Source of the DNA: a virus
Virus record (IMG/VR): IMGVR_UViG_3300042987_000890
Location: 1-20,098 of that record
Length of the DNA stretch: 20,098 nucleotides
Strand: one strand, 5' to 3'
This document shows positions 13,889 through 20,098 of this stretch, piece after piece (within the stretch, counting starts at the first letter, position 1; every line of letters starts with the position of its first letter). A program made the position numbers and the translations under genes. Under the pieces are notes generated by a model. That model was not told the DNA's origin. It saw only the letters and a program-made list of their open reading frames with translations, and searched no databases.

Positions 13889-14066
13889 ACTTCCCAACTC
13901 CGTAGCGCGGCGCGCCTACTGCCGTGACCGTTACCGTACTCGTCTCGCTTGACGTGACCAACTCATCACTCGTAATGAACAACTGAAGTGGTCTGCTACG
14001 TGGTACCGTAGGTCGTGCCCGTTGGTTATCGAGCATACGTGCGATAACGCGTGCGATGTCGTCCAT
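13863..14066 (-). CDS. Small hypothetical tail-module protein
   Basis: A protein of 67 residues. The ATG at 14066 overlaps the stop of the hub gene as TAATG, indicating translational coupling. The N-terminal part is basic (ARVIARMLDNQRARPTVPRSR), followed by a short beta-rich section (LQLFITSDELVTSSETSTVTVTAVG). A GGCGCGCC site at 13909-13916 lies in the coding sequence and reads Gly-Ala-Pro; the last about 18 codons (GAPRYGVGKYGQVIFGQ) may be repeat-derived and run into the next gene's start. Unrecognised; perhaps a linker protein of the tail tip. Confidence 0.6.
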   Translation of the reverse strand: MDDIARVIARMLDNQRARPTVPRSRPLQLFITSDELVTSSETSTVTVTAVGAPRYGVGKYGQVIFGQ

Positions 14067-15463
14067 TACAGTTCACCAAATATATCTGATGACAACGTTA
14101 TTTGGTTGATGTACACGTCAGGCGTGGGGAAAGACTTCTCGATATCGGTCACCCAGAACTTCACGCCACTCGCGAACTGTCCGCCAAATCGTTTACTAGA
14201 AGTGATTGTAATGGATTGTCCGGCAGCCCATCCCGTACCGTATGCGCCACACGTCATTTGCCACTTATGTCGACGCGCGTTCAGATATAGCGTTGCCCTA
14301 TCCTCGATGGTCTGCTTTCCTACGGCAATCAGATCGGATGCGCTGAAGACTTCTTCATAAATGCCATCAGACAACGCACCAGACTCACGTGACTTCACTT
14401 CTGTGATTGATGTTGGATCAGTTACCTTCCAGACTGCTGGTCCAATATCCAAGTACTTGTAGGTTGCACTTACCGTAGCGCCTGCTACTGGTGGTTGCTG
14501 AAAGCGTACACCCCAGTTAGGCAGACACAATAACGCAACGTCATTCGTCTTTCCATCACCAGGCTGTCCATCGATGTTCTCTTGCTTGAGTTTGCCGTTG
14601 CCTGTCGTATACGTTGTAGTGCCGCCACCCGCTGGCAATGTGACTGTGACAGTTGTTTGTGCCATACTTGCTGGTTCGTAGCCTAGGGAGAAGAAGGAAC
14701 GATAGCCATCACCATCACCAAGCCCATCAGCGTAGTCGAGTTCAACACCCGTCTCGGGATTAGTCGCAACAGCCTTCGCATCCTTGATATACGCAACGTT
14801 GATGATCTGGTCGCCAGTCTCGTCAACGGTTATATCGAATAGCGTTGTGCCTGACTCGTAGTTGAACGTAGCGACTGGCGCGACACCGCCTGTCGAAAGT
14901 GATGACCTAAAGACTACGTTCTTGTTGTAGTCTACATACCAGATATAACCAATCTGCTTTGCGATACGGTCAATGCACTGGCTTGGTGGCTCAAAGTCAA
15001 ACGTCTGTGCTTGTATTACGTTACCTGCTTCAATAAGTGATTGCCCCCACGTAATCAATCCCTTATTGCAGTAGTCAGTAATGATGCTCTTGATGATGCT
15101 ACCGGCAGTTGCCGAAGTGGTATTCGTAGGGTACGTCACGCCTTGTACAAGGTATCTGTCGAACCATCGAACGTAGTCAGCGCAATCTACTTCATACAAG
15201 AATGATGAACTGCCTGCTGGCGTTTCACGAACACGTTGAACGATACCGCCAAACTCGGTGCTACCGTTCACGGTCAATACCGCTTCGTGTCCGGCACGCG
15301 GTATCGCTACCGCAGGTGTACTGCCCGAATACGGGATGACGATTTGCAGACCTGTTAGCGATCCTGCTCGGTCACGTAGTGACTCTTTGATCTTGATACT
15401 AGCCAAACGCACATAGGATGAGTACTGGACACCGTTGAACGTAAGGCTAATGTTTAGCGCCAT
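14066..15463 (-). CDS. Tail hub-like protein (baseplate/tail tip)
   Basis: A protein of 465 residues, with a strong GGAGGCAACAA site before the ATG at 15463. It begins with a beta domain (VQYSSYVRLASIKIKESLRDRAGSLTGLQIVIP), contains VLTVNGSTEFGGIVQRVRET and VDCADYVRWFDRYLV (residues about 85-110), and a later AxxxxLIKSI/SIIKSIITDYC and ECID-like helix (PSQCIDRIAKQIGYIWYVDYNKNVVFR). This order, GGIVxxVxE ... DxxxxLDR ... IIxxIIxxY ... GYxWYVDxxxxxxF, is that of phage tail hub proteins related to Mu gp44/T4 gp27. It lies directly downstream of the tape measure gene, the usual place for tail-tip hub genes. Family assignment rests on pattern only. Confidence 0.82.
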   Translation of the reverse strand: MALNISLTFNGVQYSSYVRLASIKIKESLRDRAGSLTGLQIVIPYSGSTPAVAIPRAGHEAVLTVNGSTEFGGIVQRVRETPAGSSSFLYEVDCADYVRWFDRYLVQGVTYPTNTTSATAGSIIKSIITDYCNKGLITWGQSLIEAGNVIQAQTFDFEPPSQCIDRIAKQIGYIWYVDYNKNVVFRSSLSTGGVAPVATFNYESGTTLFDITVDETGDQIINVAYIKDAKAVATNPETGVELDYADGLGDGDGYRSFFSLGYEPASMAQTTVTVTLPAGGGTTTYTTGNGKLKQENIDGQPGDGKTNDVALLCLPNWGVRFQQPPVAGATVSATYKYLDIGPAVWKVTDPTSITEVKSRESGALSDGIYEEVFSASDLIAVGKQTIEDRATLYLNARRHKWQMTCGAYGTGWAAGQSITITSSKRFGGQFASGVKFWVTDIEKSFPTPDVYINQITLSSDIFGEL

Positions 15464-15605: not shown

Positions 15606-18600
15606 CTACGTTGTCTGGAAAAGCATCCTACGCTGTAATCCTAACTGCCTTCTGAACGCATCGGCAGCGGATGCGCCAGCGGCTACAGGATCGCTAAACG
15701 AACCAGCAACATTGATGACTAGGCTAGCGATATTCACGCCACCACCACCACCGAGCATATCGTTTAGTTGACCGAGTGGGATAACTGCTTCTGGTCCAGC
15801 CTCTCCAACGATTGCCGGAGTTGGTTTCATAACGATACCGCCAGACGCTAGTAGCAACCAGTCTTCACCACCGGCACCCTTGCGATTATGAACAACGTGC
15901 TTAAACTTACCGACAAGGTATGTATGATCGGGATGATCAACCTCTAGGTTATAGACGCGAGATGTGTATCCAACCATCCTGATGGAATGAACTCGCCTAC
16001 TGCGTCCATACGCATTACGCAACTCCATACCAACCTGTAGGTTAGCAGCACGTATGAACTCGTAGGGTACTGGAATATCCTGATGGTCATTCACAACCGC
16101 AAACGGATGCTCACCAGTAACTTCTATTGTTTCCCAGTACCCTCCCGTCTTTGCGTCAGACGTAATGATCTGCATGATTGTTCGATTGTCGAATACGAAT
16201 ACTTCAGCGATTGGCGCAGCGACTACAACACCATCGACGGTATAGAGCGTGACGTACTGACCAACAACTAGTTGCTCGATTGGAACGTAACCATTTGGCG
16301 TAGACACAAGCGTATCGCCAACGAAACAACCACCGAATAGACCAGCACCAGCACCAATACCAATAGCGGCACCGCCAAGTATGATCGCACCGGCAGCGAC
16401 ATCACCTGCTCCACCGCTCGTTATAGGCGCGCCACGCGATGTTGATGAGCCATCTACAATAATGTCTTCACCAGCGAACTGTGTTGCCGGAGCAGCCTGC
16501 TGATCTGCAACTTCAGTCTTTCCCTGAATAGTATTCACCACGGTTGTAATCATTCGTGGGATAGCGTTCAAGGCACCAGACCAGTTAGCCAACTCCGCAA
16601 ACGCATTACCGAAGGCTAGACTAAACCCAGTCTTTAGCGCCAACGGTACGGTAAACATATCGCTGATGTACTTCAGCAACTCGCGTGACGCATCGGCAAT
16701 ACGGATGCCTACCGTTGTCTGTACGGTAGGGATGTTCCGTATGTTTGTGTTGAAGTCTGATACCTGCGTCATCGCAGGTTCTGTCGTTACCGTAACGGTA
16801 GTGGGTACTTCAGCAGGAACGTTCCCAAGTAACTGCTGAAACTTCTCAACGAGTACCGTAGCCACTACGGTCGATGCGGTAAACAGGATGCCAAACTCTG
16901 GCTTATACCACAGTAACGCATCTCGCACCTTTTCTATATTAGTTTGCGACTGACCTATATTGACATCAATATTGATCTTCTTGTCTACAAGTTCTGCTAA
17001 CTTTGCTTTTAGGTTGTCGACTACGCTGACGTTACGCGCATTGACGTTTACGTTGACGTTTGCGTTTACGTCACCGAGGTTAGGTACGTTGACCTGAACA
17101 TCCACCTTCTTAACTGGCGGTATCAAGCCCAACTTCTCTAACAATGTTTGTACTAATGTAATGACTGGTCCAATAACTGGGATCAAGTTCAGTAGCGCAT
17201 CCTTGAAGAAGTCTGAACCAGTTGCGCCATCGGCACCTGCTTTTGGACCAAGTCCAAGCGATGCGAAGAAGGTACGAATACCGTCAGCCGCATCCTTCAC
17301 GATATTCGCTACTGATCGCAACCAGTCCCATAGTGGCTTGAGTAGTTTGCCGAATGCCCGCAGGTATTCGGTTGCGGTACGAAGCATCGATGCGATGAAA
17401 CGTAGCGCTGTCGATAGAATGTTGAACTCACCAACAACACCGAATATAGGCGCAAGTAGATCACTGAACGCAGATGCCGCTTCAATCACAATCTCATAGA
17501 TCGCTTGGAACAAGTCAAATAGTTCCATGAAGACTTCAAATGCTGGCTGTACTGCTTTCTCTATACCCTTGAATAGCGGCGTGAGCATCTTAGCGACAAC
17601 GCCTAATATAGACATCACGTGACCAAGTACGACAGCGACTGCGACACCGAGTTGACCGAGGACACGCATAACTGGTCCCATCATCTCGCTGATATTCGAT
17701 ATCGCTTGACTAACGGAACCATCCTGCCCGAACAAACGCGCGAATATAGGGTTGTCGAACGTATCCTTGAAGAACTGCGTTAAGCCATTGAAGTAGTCAA
17801 CTTGTGCTTTTAGCGATACCTTGCGTAATGGTTCGAGCGCATTACCGAGTGCTTCTTGCGCATTACCTGCGCTATCGGCTGCCCTAGCGAGTAGGTTGTC
17901 GATATTCTCAACATCCTGCAACATTGCGCTGCCAAACTTTTCAGCAGACTTCGCAAGCAGTAGTCTAGCGGCATCGGCACCGCTCATATTCATTGAGTTG
18001 AAGTTATTGATCAACTGTTCTTTAGTTTGGTTTGTTGCCTCTGCGAGTAGTTGTAAGGCATCCACTCCATTAGTAGCAAACCCACGCAAAGACTTTACTG
18101 TTGCTTTCGGAGTGTCTGCTAAAGTCTGGAACTGCGACGCTAATGCTTTTAGGTTATCGGTATTGCCTTGTGCGGCACCACCTAGTCCAGCGAGTGTTGG
18201 TATGAGTTCGTCAGCGGCCACACCAGCCTGAAGTAAACCTAACGCAACTTCTTTTATATCGTCTGCCTTGAATGCTGTGAAGCCAGCAAAGTCTTGTAGT
18301 GCTTGTAATGTTTCTTCTGTCTTTTGTGTATCACTAATAAGTGCGTTGAAACTTTTCGATAGTTTACGATTGCCGTCAGCCGCTTTTATTGCCTCACTGG
18401 CATACTGACTAAAGCCAATAGCAGCGGCACTAATAGCGGCAACGACAACACCGATACCAGCAGCAACGGTAAGGGATGCGCCACCTAAACCAAGAAAAGA
18501 CTTTGCGGCATCGCTAACAGCTCCGGTAGCGTCATCGAAGCCACGCTGCAACTCTTCTACTTTGCCTTGTAGTTTAGAAAGTGGTCCAGTTGCTTTATCG

Positions 18601-18647
18601 TCTGCGATAGCAGTGATGCGAATGACACCACCAGCGTTACCGGCCAT
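15606..18647 (-). CDS. Tail tape measure protein with embedded Hint domain
   Basis: A protein of 1013 residues, by far the longest in the tail module and preceded by chaperone genes, as usual for tape measure proteins, which set tail length and fill the tail tube. The N-terminal part has helical, coiled-coil-like and hydrophobic stretches (about 53-80 and 340-375, VLGQLGVAVAVVLGHVMSIL). Near the end is the typical tape-measure signature GGIVMKPTPAIVGEAGPEAVIPL (split: residues 936-958). Just before it, residues 774-921 form a Hint domain, preceded by a glycine-rich hydrophobic segment (750-773). The ATG at 18647 overlaps the previous stop as TGATG. Without the Hint domain the protein would be 865 residues. 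GGCGCGCC at 16426-16433 reads Gly-Ala-Pro shortly upstream of the Hint. Confidence 0.93.
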   Translation of the reverse strand: MAGNAGGVIRITAIADDKATGPLSKLQGKVEELQRGFDDATGAVSDAAKSFLGLGGASLTVAAGIGVVVAAISAAAIGFSQYASEAIKAADGNRKLSKSFNALISDTQKTEETLQALQDFAGFTAFKADDIKEVALGLLQAGVAADELIPTLAGLGGAAQGNTDNLKALASQFQTLADTPKATVKSLRGFATNGVDALQLLAEATNQTKEQLINNFNSMNMSGADAARLLLAKSAEKFGSAMLQDVENIDNLLARAADSAGNAQEALGNALEPLRKVSLKAQVDYFNGLTQFFKDTFDNPIFARLFGQDGSVSQAISNISEMMGPVMRVLGQLGVAVAVVLGHVMSILGVVAKMLTPLFKGIEKAVQPAFEVFMELFDLFQAIYEIVIEAASAFSDLLAPIFGVVGEFNILSTALRFIASMLRTATEYLRAFGKLLKPLWDWLRSVANIVKDAADGIRTFFASLGLGPKAGADGATGSDFFKDALLNLIPVIGPVITLVQTLLEKLGLIPPVKKVDVQVNVPNLGDVNANVNVNVNARNVSVVDNLKAKLAELVDKKINIDVNIGQSQTNIEKVRDALLWYKPEFGILFTASTVVATVLVEKFQQLLGNVPAEVPTTVTVTTEPAMTQVSDFNTNIRNIPTVQTTVGIRIADASRELLKYISDMFTVPLALKTGFSLAFGNAFAELANWSGALNAIPRMITTVVNTIQGKTEVADQQAAPATQFAGEDIIVDGSSTSRGAPITSGGAGDVAAGAIILGGAAIGIGAGAGLFGGCFVGDTLVSTPNGYVPIEQLVVGQYVTLYTVDGVVVAAPIAEVFVFDNRTIMQIITSDAKTGGYWETIEVTGEHPFAVVNDHQDIPVPYEFIRAANLQVGMELRNAYGRSRRVHSIRMVGYTSRVYNLEVDHPDHTYLVGKFKHVVHNRKGAGGEDWLLLASGGIVMKPTPAIVGEAGPEAVIPLGQLNDMLGGGGGVNIASLVINVAGSFSDPVAAGASAADAFRRQLGLQRRMLFQTT
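15885..16328 (-). other. Hint (intein-like) domain inside the tape measure protein
   Basis: Residues 774-921 of the tape measure protein. Block A starts at Cys774: CFVGDTLVSTPNGY then PIEQLVVGQYV. Block B is EVTGEHPFAV with Thr844 and His847. The C-terminal blocks are RVYNLEVDHPDHTYLVG and KHVVHN, ending with His920-Asn921. All key residues for an N-S shift and for Asn cyclisation are present. The next residue is Arg922, not Cys/Ser/Thr, so ordinary splicing lacks its nucleophile. At 148 residues it has no homing endonuclease. It looks most like bacterial-intein-like A-type or polymorphic-toxin Hint domains (known for VYNLxVxxxHTYxVG ... VHN). Likely outcome: C-terminal or N-terminal cleavage near Asn921/Cys774. 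Confidence 0.88.
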
Positions 18648-18901
18648 CAGCGTGCTTTCTGTTTAGCCTTGCGTGATCGTTCTTGTTGAACTTGTGACTC
18701 ATAACTCTCAAGTAACAGTAGACGCTCACGCCATAGTGGCGGTAGTCGCAACACTTGTTTAGGCGTGTAGCCATACTTGCGCATTAGTATGGCGTCTGGT
18801 ACCCAACTAGGTGGATTGACTTTATGTCCCTCCACCCATGCGAATAGACGTTCACGCTCCGCTTTTGGGTACGTTGAAGAGTTGTCCAACCTCGCTGACA
18901 A
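18647..18901 (-). CDS. Tail assembly chaperone, frameshifted second part (GT extension)
   Basis: An open frame of 84 codons overlapping the end of the 110-residue chaperone by 50 bases. It lacks an ATG in the overlap: the first start-like codon is TTG (18901) with no ribosome site, and a stop codon lies five codons upstream. It should therefore be made as an extension of the first chaperone by +1 (or -2) frameshifting. Its sequence is basic and helical (YPKAERERLFAWVEG, YTPKQVLRLPPLWRERLLLLESYESQVQQERSRKAKQKAR), with YGYTPKQVLxLP typical of the second part of phage tail chaperones. The fused protein, if shifted at CCC, would have about 178 residues. It precedes the tape measure gene, whose start overlaps its stop. 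Confidence 0.82.
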   Translation of the reverse strand: MSARLDNSSTYPKAERERLFAWVEGHKVNPPSWVPDAILMRKYGYTPKQVLRLPPLWRERLLLLESYESQVQQERSRKAKQKAR

Positions 18902-19184
18902 TACATTCCACTACGTGTGACGGAACACGATCAAACGCTTCTACGCTAACTGGTAGACGTTCGTCTGTATCTGCGTCCAACAAGTTCCAGTCAACGATCA
19001 GCGCAACCATCTGATGAAGGCTACGTGTAACGTCATCCAAGTCTTGCCGTTGTGCTGCGGCAATCAGTTGAGACTTTACTTTCCACTTCATGCTTTCTGG
19101 ATGAGCCACTTCGATGTAGAAGTCTGGTTCATCACAAGCACTAAGTGCAATCCGTTTCGTGACTGGCTTCTTGTTGTACGACAT
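18852..19184 (-). CDS. Tail assembly chaperone, first part (G)
   Basis: A protein of 110 residues from the ATG at 19184 with AGGAGAGCGT just upstream. It lies between the major tail gene and the tape measure gene, which is the place of the G/GT chaperone pair in siphophages. The middle is helical (PESMKWKVKSQLIAAAQRQDLDDVTRSLHQMVALIVDWNLLDADTDERLPVSVEAFDRVP, quoted in pieces in the family as 'VxxxWNLxDxDxxxLP'). Such proteins bind tape measure protein during tail assembly. The end (FNVPKSGA) overlaps the second part; the CCC AAA at 18869-18864 is the likely shift site. Confidence 0.85.
   Translation of the reverse strand: MSYNKKPVTKRIALSACDEPDFYIEVAHPESMKWKVKSQLIAAAQRQDLDDVTRSLHQMVALIVDWNLLDADTDERLPVSVEAFDRVPSHVVECIVSEVGQLFNVPKSGA
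18864..18869 (-). promoter_or_regulatory. Candidate programmed frameshift site, +1 at CCC-AAA
   Basis: In the first chaperone frame, codon 106 is CCC followed by AAA AGC. A proline tRNA slipping one base forward to CCA continues as AAA GCG GAG in the second frame. No canonical X-XXY-YYZ site fits a -1 shift, since the second frame is +1 (or -2) relative to the first. A +1 shift on CCC has precedent in Listeria phage PSA. The exact site is inferred. Confidence 0.6.
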
Positions 19185-19195
19185 ACGCTCTCCTG

Positions 19196-20098
19196 TTAGT
19201 ACGCAGTTGATTGTGCGTTGTTCAAGACTACCTTGATTGGTCCAGAGTCAGTTGTGTTGTACATAGCGCGGCCGCTAAACGTCAACTGATACAAACCACT
19301 GCCCATGTCGCGCGTCGCAGCACCCTCGCCATAGTTCGCGTTGGTCATCGTGAATGCGATTGAACGCAATGTAGTCGATGCGCCATACGTACACGTGAGA
19401 ACAATCGGATGCTCTGTGAACGCGCCACTACTGCCAAGGTACTTCGTCAAGTCATCCGTAGGCGTTGCGCCAGCGTCTAACGCTACGCTAAACGTCACCT
19501 CTAGTCGTCCCTCGTCAATCCGAATAGGATCACGTGAACCAGTCGCGTGAATAGGATCAGCGGCGCGAGTCATCGTAAGGCTGAACGTAGTCACGCGCGC
19601 AACTACGCTGCCACCTAGCGATACGCTAGCGTCGATGCCAATCCATGGCTTCTCTAACGTTGCCGTCAATCCTGTCGTTCGTGTATTGGTCGTTGGTGTC
19701 TTACCAGTCCACGAACTTGTTGCCTGAAGTAGTCCATCCGCAGCGTTGAACGTGAAGCCAACCTCTGAACACTTCAGTCCGGTATAGGTACGATCTTGCG
19801 TTGGGTTGACATCTTCGATTGTATATGACGGAGTTGCTGCCGCTAGCGTAAACGTATGGACGTATGGAGTGCTTGCGCCAGTCTTAGTATCAGTTCCAAG
19901 GATAGCCATCAGGTAGTGACCGATAGTCGATGGGTAGGCTGGTCCTTCAAGGCTAACGGTAGAACGTCCACCACCTTGAAGCAACTGGTAGTCCATCGCT
20001 GCGATACCGCGCCTGCCGCTATCACGGACAGCGTTGTACTCGGTCGTGAACGTAGGATCAGACGTGACTGGGATGATGTCCGTTGCGCTGACTTCTGT
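19196..20098 (-). CDS. Major tail (tube) protein, 5' end outside window
   Basis: At least 300 residues; the frame stays open without a stop to the right edge, and the upstream codons read as normal protein (SATDIIPVTSDPTFTTEYNAVRDSGRRGIAAMDY), so the ATG at 19996 is not the start. It also has no ribosome site there. The protein is beta-rich with repeated Thr/Gly/Ser strands (YVHTFTLAAATPSYTIEDV, FSLTMTRAADPIHATGSRDP, AGATPTDDLTKYLGSSGAF, LYQLTFSGRAMYN). The motifs YTGLKCSEVGFTF, SLTMTRAADPIxATGS and RLEVTFS are the kind seen in siphophage tail tube proteins. It comes right before the chaperone pair and tape measure gene, the usual order. I rest the call on these patterns and on position. Confidence 0.85.
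   Translation of the reverse strand, partial: TEVSATDIIPVTSDPTFTTEYNAVRDSGRRGIAAMDYQLLQGGGRSTVSLEGPAYPSTIGHYLMAILGTDTKTGASTPYVHTFTLAAATPSYTIEDVNPTQDRTYTGLKCSEVGFTFNAADGLLQATSSWTGKTPTTNTRTTGLTATLEKPWIGIDASVSLGGSVVARVTTFSLTMTRAADPIHATGSRDPIRIDEGRLEVTFSVALDAGATPTDDLTKYLGSSGAFTEHPIVLTCTYGASTTLRSIAFTMTNANYGEGAATRDMGSGLYQLTFSGRAMYNTTDSGPIKVVLNNAQSTAY

Follow-up and report, generated by a model that had tools for sequence, protein, structure and literature searches.

Tail gene cluster and tape measure protein

The window analysed here is a virus record of 20,098 bases from a freshwater phage, and its tail gene cluster lies on the minus strand, as do all features described below. Within this cluster, an open reading frame (ORF) of 1013 amino acids (aa) at 15606..18647 encodes a predicted tape measure protein (TMP) with a predicted mass of 106.6 kDa. 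Shortly before its C-terminal tail the protein carries a complete Hint domain (aa 774-921; 15885..16328) resembling the bacterial intein-like (BIL) domains, which is a candidate for a built-in, self-cleaving module. The cluster consists of genes for a tail tube, two overlapping chaperone-like ORFs, the TMP, a 465-aa protein, tail fibre-like proteins and an M23 peptidase.

From its own matches alone the TMP was weakly assigned, scoring 22 bits with TMP_3 (cut-off 41) and E = 1.2e-9 with a TMP family of PHROG. Aligned homologues at the same syntenic position matched TMP_3 with E-values of 9e-25 and 1e-26, and in every relative the gene is flanked by tail chaperone ORFs and the conserved 465-aa protein. 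Through these syntenic homologues the sequence-based assignment as a TMP is firm, and the window and its relatives share the gene order of a TMP locus, in which the tube gene is followed by the two overlapping chaperone-like ORFs, the TMP and then the 465-aa protein. The tail tube protein (19196..20098) was recognized by Pfam Phage_tube_2 (E = 1.9e-21). The first chaperone-like ORF (18852..19184; 110 aa) was assigned by its position upstream of the TMP and is homologous in all relatives covering that region; the second (18647..18901; 84 aa), which overlaps the first, is homologous in nearly all relatives. The two share 50 bases (18852-18901). At a CCC-AAA-AGC stretch the frame of the second is +1, and a +1 rather than a -1 frameshift may therefore join them. 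Downstream of the TMP, the hub-like 465-aa tail protein (14066..15463) is conserved in relatives with and without a Hint (53-98% identity to the window protein); its match to the baseplate hub family phrog_196 is weak (E = 0.045).

A Hint domain with an intact active site and no +1 nucleophile

Translation of 15885-16328 gave a 148-aa sequence running from CFVGDT to VVHN. The Hint region scored 36.4 bits with Pfam PT-HINT (PF07591; cut-off 27.7) and 33.4 bits with NCBIfam intein_Nterm (cut-off 24.5). A profile built from nine TMP Hints retrieved PDB entry 2LWY, the A-type BIL domain of Clostridium thermocellum, over nearly its whole length with an E-value of 8e-23, far above any intein. An AlphaFold2 model of aa 730-1013 had a mean pLDDT of 52 and was poor outside the Hint; 2LWY was matched even so. 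The Hint modelled alone from an alignment of 20 TMP Hints reached a pLDDT of 94.8 and a pTM of 0.87. This model matched 2LWY with a Foldseek E-value of 1.9e-10 and a VIA Z-score of 21.3 (root mean square deviation 1.2 Å, 132 residues), alongside matches to inteins and Hedgehog. 2LWY is therefore the best match by both sequence and fold, and the model places aa 774-921 within the Hint fold. Together with the Pfam and NCBIfam scores, this goes well beyond chance.

The residues expected to carry out the chemistry are all present. Cys774 (16326..16328), Hint residue 1, is the predicted nucleophile of the N-S acyl shift. Thr844-Gly-Glu-His847 (16107..16118) forms the TxxH motif of block B, His908 (15924..15926; H135 of the Hint) is the block F histidine, and His920-Asn921 (15885..15890) forms block G, for which Asn cyclisation and a C-side cut are predicted. 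Cys1, the block-B and block-F histidines and the final His-Asn are among the residues invariant in 20/20 aligned TMP Hints from nine TMP types; the block-B Thr is nearly invariant (Ser-like in locus L003). The domain is followed by the non-nucleophile Arg922 (+1) and Lys923 (+2; 15879..15884). In 21 TMP Hints the +1 residue is A, F, I, V, R, Y, K, M or L and never Cys, Ser or Thr. The first-pass annotation, made from the letters of the window, had described a complete Hint domain with intact Cys774, Thr844-x-x-His847 and His920-Asn921, and with Arg922 in place of the nucleophile of ordinary splicing. This description was borne out to the residue, and the lack of a splicing nucleophile extends to all TMP relatives found.

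Like class 1 inteins (NpuDnaB, Ssp DnaB mini-intein), the domain has the Hint fold and splicing blocks A, B, F and G, including Cys/Ser at position 1, TxxH and His-Asn. Unlike them, it has Arg922 instead of Cys/Ser/Thr at +1, contains no endonuclease and lies outside any conserved active site of the protein that carries it. The domain has the characters of A-type BIL domains: intein-like blocks, His-Asn at the C-terminus and, at +1, no conserved nucleophile (R here, variable in relatives). With 2LWY the domain shares the fold, the length class, the block-B and block-F histidines, the His-Asn end and the lack of need for a +1 nucleophile; it differs in that the host protein is a phage TMP and the Hint lies shortly before the TMP tail. 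A-type BIL domains are located in variable parts of non-conserved proteins; a TMP is a host protein of a conserved kind, but its sequence varies around the Hint, and the Hint itself can be present or absent.

Segments flanking the Hint

Directly before the Hint lies a glycine-rich hydrophobic segment (aa 750-773; 16329..16400). Its best 19-residue hydropathy is 1.91, a value exceeded by only 1.9% of the hydropathy windows in the protein. After Asn921 a C-terminal part of 92 residues remains (aa 922-1013; 15609..15884), which is predicted to be freed. It contains the GEAGPEAVIPL motif of the TMP tail (aa 948-958; 15774..15806), and both the tail and its motif are conserved in relatives with and without a Hint. 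The predicted masses are 80.7 kDa for the N-terminal fragment, 16.7 kDa for the Hint and 9.2 kDa for the C-terminal fragment. All three elements, the hydrophobic segment, the 92-residue remainder and the conserved tail, had been pointed out in the first-pass annotation, and each proved to be real.

PT-HINT is the best Pfam family of the domain, and in most genomic relatives the Hint stands before a C-terminal domain. The toxin-type protein L007 also has a hydrophobic Gly/Ala-rich stretch upstream of its Hint. From this one could argue that a toxin gene was the source of the Hint, which would continue to free a C-terminal effector during infection. No toxin domain lies directly downstream, however: the Hint of the window precedes a TMP tail, the piece to be freed is an ordinary one that is present in Hint-less TMPs too and matches no recognized toxin domain, and an immunity gene was not noticed either. 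We therefore rejected toxin release, which is very improbable.

Relatives with and without the Hint

IMG/VR was scanned with a DNA pattern for HTYxVGx5VHN. The scan gave 15 loci, 10 of which were TMPs of one group with the same layout as in the window, and scans with Hint and tail alignments added two further members (L027 and L028). The Hint was found in at least eight further distinct TMP alleles of the phage group of the window, besides near-copies (L012, 99% the same as the window domain; L018 and L022, which resemble L013). The pattern scans give lower bounds on the frequency of Hint-bearing TMPs. Within the group the Hint comprises 130-148 aa and is followed by 83-94 aa with AADAFRRQLGLQRR near the end, and the +1 residue is R, F, Y, K or M. 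The 19-residue hydropathy before the Hint is 1.8-2.1 in most Hint-bearing members, compared to 0.8-1.0 in the Hint-less ones. Such Hint-less TMPs were found in L029 and L030, where they are identical, and in L032: they begin like the TMP of L013 and have the same tail. A comparison of related TMP genes with and without the domain, as the first-pass annotation had suggested, thus yielded both kinds in identical gene order.

Without the Hint, TMPs of the L013, L014 and L028 types would have a length of 759-775 aa, which is near the ~746 aa of the Hint-less TMPs. Furthermore, TMP alleles whose bodies differ have Hint DNA in common, and in L015/L025 this shared DNA has an edge at Cys1. Both observations would suit a tolerated, mobile, mini-intein-like element that excises itself and re-ligates its flanks by aminolysis, without a side-chain nucleophile, leaving a continuous TMP in the virion. 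On the other hand, the joint sequences vary widely among alleles and the Hint-less sequence is not restored, the +1 residue varies freely and there is no homing endonuclease. In addition, BIL domains without a +1 nucleophile were reported to give mainly cleaved products (PMC7664689; PMC7765530). We consider splicing of this kind rather unlikely. A selfish splicing intein as the principal explanation was rejected, as the +1 residue is never Cys, Ser or Thr.

Hint domains in other TMP types

Eight other putative TMP types also carry a Hint close to the C-terminus, and for seven of these the assignment is supported by a TMP family. The scans added L003, L053, L055, L150, L152/L158/L162, L153, L164, L166 and L167. 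The nine types fall into TMP_3 (window group; L164, 7e-18), PhageMin_Tail (L053, 3e-29, together with L150, 3.5e-26; L003, weaker with 1e-5, and 8e-22 for PHROG TMP), TMP_2 (L167, 1.3e-7), TMP families of PHROG (L166, 2e-11; L153, 2e-13; L100, 1.6e-22) and the family-unassigned L152. The call for L055 is based on its likeness to L167; for the L152 group it was made from the character of the sequence. The TMP tail motif, GG.V..P....GE..PE..P or an analogue of it, follows the Hint in most of the nine types. In most types the tail after the Hint measures 69-94 aa, but it is longer in L055/L167 (177-180 aa) and longest in the L152 group (273-345 aa).

Some of these loci have features of their own. 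The TMP of L153 contains an NlpC/P60 domain (1.4e-21) upstream of the Hint, and therefore the cell-wall enzyme would stay with the tape. L100, on the contig JAUQXC010000713.1 of a Thermoflexales bacterium metagenome-assembled genome, encodes a TMP-like protein with the Hint 72 aa from the C-terminus and, of the genomic loci that were checked, is the only one in which a TMP-like Hint protein from such a bacterial genome was noticed. No match came from a pattern search that covered 396 genomes belonging to the phylum of G001. The PHROG family phrog_21587, of unknown function, matches the Hint segments of L003, L153 and L164 with its C-terminal part.

Conservation, exchange and ancestry

The other aligned TMP Hints are 26-41% identical to the domain of the window. 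In ten pairs the ratio of non-synonymous to synonymous divergence (omega) of the Hint was 0.06-0.24, indicating purifying selection. This supports the suggestion of the first-pass annotation that the domain is probably active. As Hint-less relatives exist, one may ask whether the Hint is a folded structural module without any chemistry. The key active-site residues, however, are invariant at this low identity and under purifying selection, which makes an inactive module improbable. A decaying intein was rejected on the same grounds, the invariant active site and the low omega. The absence of Cys, Ser and Thr at +1 is to be read with more caution, since at a background of 13% it would arise by chance across nine lineages with a probability of about 0.29; it shows that the domain can do without a splicing nucleophile, and does not show selection against such a residue.

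Synonymous divergence (dS) between L013 and L021 was 0.32 in the Hint, compared to 1.30 in the body and 0.95 in the tail. Between L015 and L025 nucleotide identity rises from ~0.5 to 0.82-0.97 at Cys1 and drops after His-Asn. Hint DNA therefore appears to have been exchanged between TMP alleles. A tree was built from 54 Hints, with the row of 2LWY taken from the profile alignment and a Cys set at its first position. The window domain groups there with those of its own TMP group (support 93/71; 91% of bootstrap trees), and the Hints of other TMP types are scattered. A single clade of TMP Hints, and with it one shared origin, was borderline rejected in the approximately unbiased test (p = 0.048), with p = 0.054 when L003 was left out.

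Lys at +2 is over-represented in TMP Hints. It occurs in 5/5 TMP lineages found without imposing Lys (window group, L003, L053, L055, L100) and in 1/25 toxin-type Hints (p = 4e-5), where the toxin-type set is not random and the TMP lineages may share ancestry. L017, a member of the window group, has Lys at +1. The last scan required Lys at +2, and the loci it added were left out of this count. The Lys pattern, the invariant Cys1 and block-B His, and several giant tail fibres that end in a Hint plus only three residues could be taken to indicate a Hog-like transfer, in which an amine or some other nucleophile would attack the thioester at Cys774 and so attach the tape to a different tail component, in place of simple hydrolysis. 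A pure transfer would have no need of the C-side machinery, yet its block-F His and His-Asn are invariant too, and shared ancestry may account for the Lys pattern. A transfer reaction is thus quite improbable.

A probable self-cleaving Hint between tape and tail

Taken together, we think it probable that an A-type BIL-like, autocatalytic Hint cuts the C-terminal GExGPE tail off the tape, acting in cis with no protease involved. After folding, Cys774 would undergo an N-S acyl shift aided by Thr844 and His847 of block B, and hydrolysis of the resulting thioester would cut on the N-side. Asn921 would cyclise with the aid of His908 and His920, cutting on the C-side. Because Arg922 cannot carry out transesterification, the main products are expected to be three pieces and not a spliced protein: the tape (aa 1-773) ending in the hydrophobic segment, the free Hint (aa 774-921) and the 92-residue GExGPE tail. 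The first-pass annotation had predicted a cut at Asn921 that releases the C-terminal part. The C-side prediction stands, but it was incomplete: both junction machineries are intact, so that cuts at both junctions are predicted, with Cys774 and the block-B His directing an N-side cut that would also free the Hint.

Cleavage of TMPs during tail morphogenesis, to which the first-pass annotation had pointed for T5 and lambda, is known from T5 pb2 and lambda gpH. Published work bears out the parallel: in T5 the cut in pb2 falls behind a hydrophobic stretch and ahead of the C-terminal part, the C-terminal piece remains as a trimer in the cup of the hub, and the hydrophobic end of the tape was proposed to enter the outer membrane (PMC10038345). 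In those phages the cut is made by proteolysis, with a host involvement for T5 pb2 according to the title of a paper cited there (PMC10038345), whereas here the built-in Hint would cut. By analogy with what is described for T5 pb2, the tail piece of the window TMP would stay at the hub of the assembled tail as a plug, and the freed tape would exit led by its hydrophobic end.

Several observations weigh against this interpretation. Cleavage is predicted from sequence and fold. The Hint-less relatives share the gene order, and the 465-aa protein downstream is 73% identical between L030 and L013. Because of such relatives the Hint is best regarded as an insertion-like, optional module that is dispensable in this phage group, and an essential role in coupling tail completion to DNA ejection, a coupling that the first-pass annotation had raised as a possibility, is unlikely given the unchanged gene order of L029, L030 and L032. 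L017 (19-residue hydropathy 0.77) and, in a different TMP type, L003 (0.13) lack the hydrophobic segment ahead of the Hint, and the types L003 and L152 have no GExGPE-like motif after the Hint. Unlike in T5, the tail piece has no recognized enzyme domain. Moreover, L055 and the L152 group gave no TMP-family match of their own.

Wider occurrence and meaning

Hints also occur in other tail proteins. L011 and L059 have an N-terminal Hint in gpJ-like tail-tip proteins (Pfam FNIII-A_GpJ, 5.9e-26 and 6.9e-30), followed by G and A at +1, respectively. L151, L156, L157, L159, L160 and L161 (and the fragments L146 and L168) are tail fibre- or tip-like proteins of up to 2580 aa ending in VHN-SK[QDN]-stop. 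In tail proteins of Alcaligenes phage Afa-NA1 (L005) and Erwinia phage Alexandra (gp112; L145) the Hint lies 10-12 residues before the C-terminus; the same Hint query also gave a match in Salmonella phage Sen-NF. The full TMP had no match in 50,697 phage records. Hint queries against these records matched inteins, toxin-type and tail proteins; none of the matches listed is annotated as a TMP, and many of them carry only the annotation 'hypothetical'. Among the papers that mention both terms, none of the open ones examined, which are a part of that literature, describes a Hint or intein in a TMP. The type of domain is known, and its host protein, position and recurrence appear not to have been described previously.

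To our knowledge, little has been established about what BIL domains do biologically, or about how TMPs are processed in most phages. A recurrent Hint at the border of tape and tail links these two questions, and sister phages with and without the Hint provide a natural control. TMPs, together with gpJ-like tips and tail fibres, are added to the known places of Hint domains. It is possible, and we put this forward tentatively, that several unrelated phage lineages have recruited BIL-type Hints as built-in, timed enzymes of TMP maturation, with the module spreading between phages. If so, the cut at the border of tape and tail would be delayed until the tail is assembled, and the TMP would turn, in a protease-free maturation, from a hub-anchored length ruler into a free, ejectable, membrane-seeking tape.
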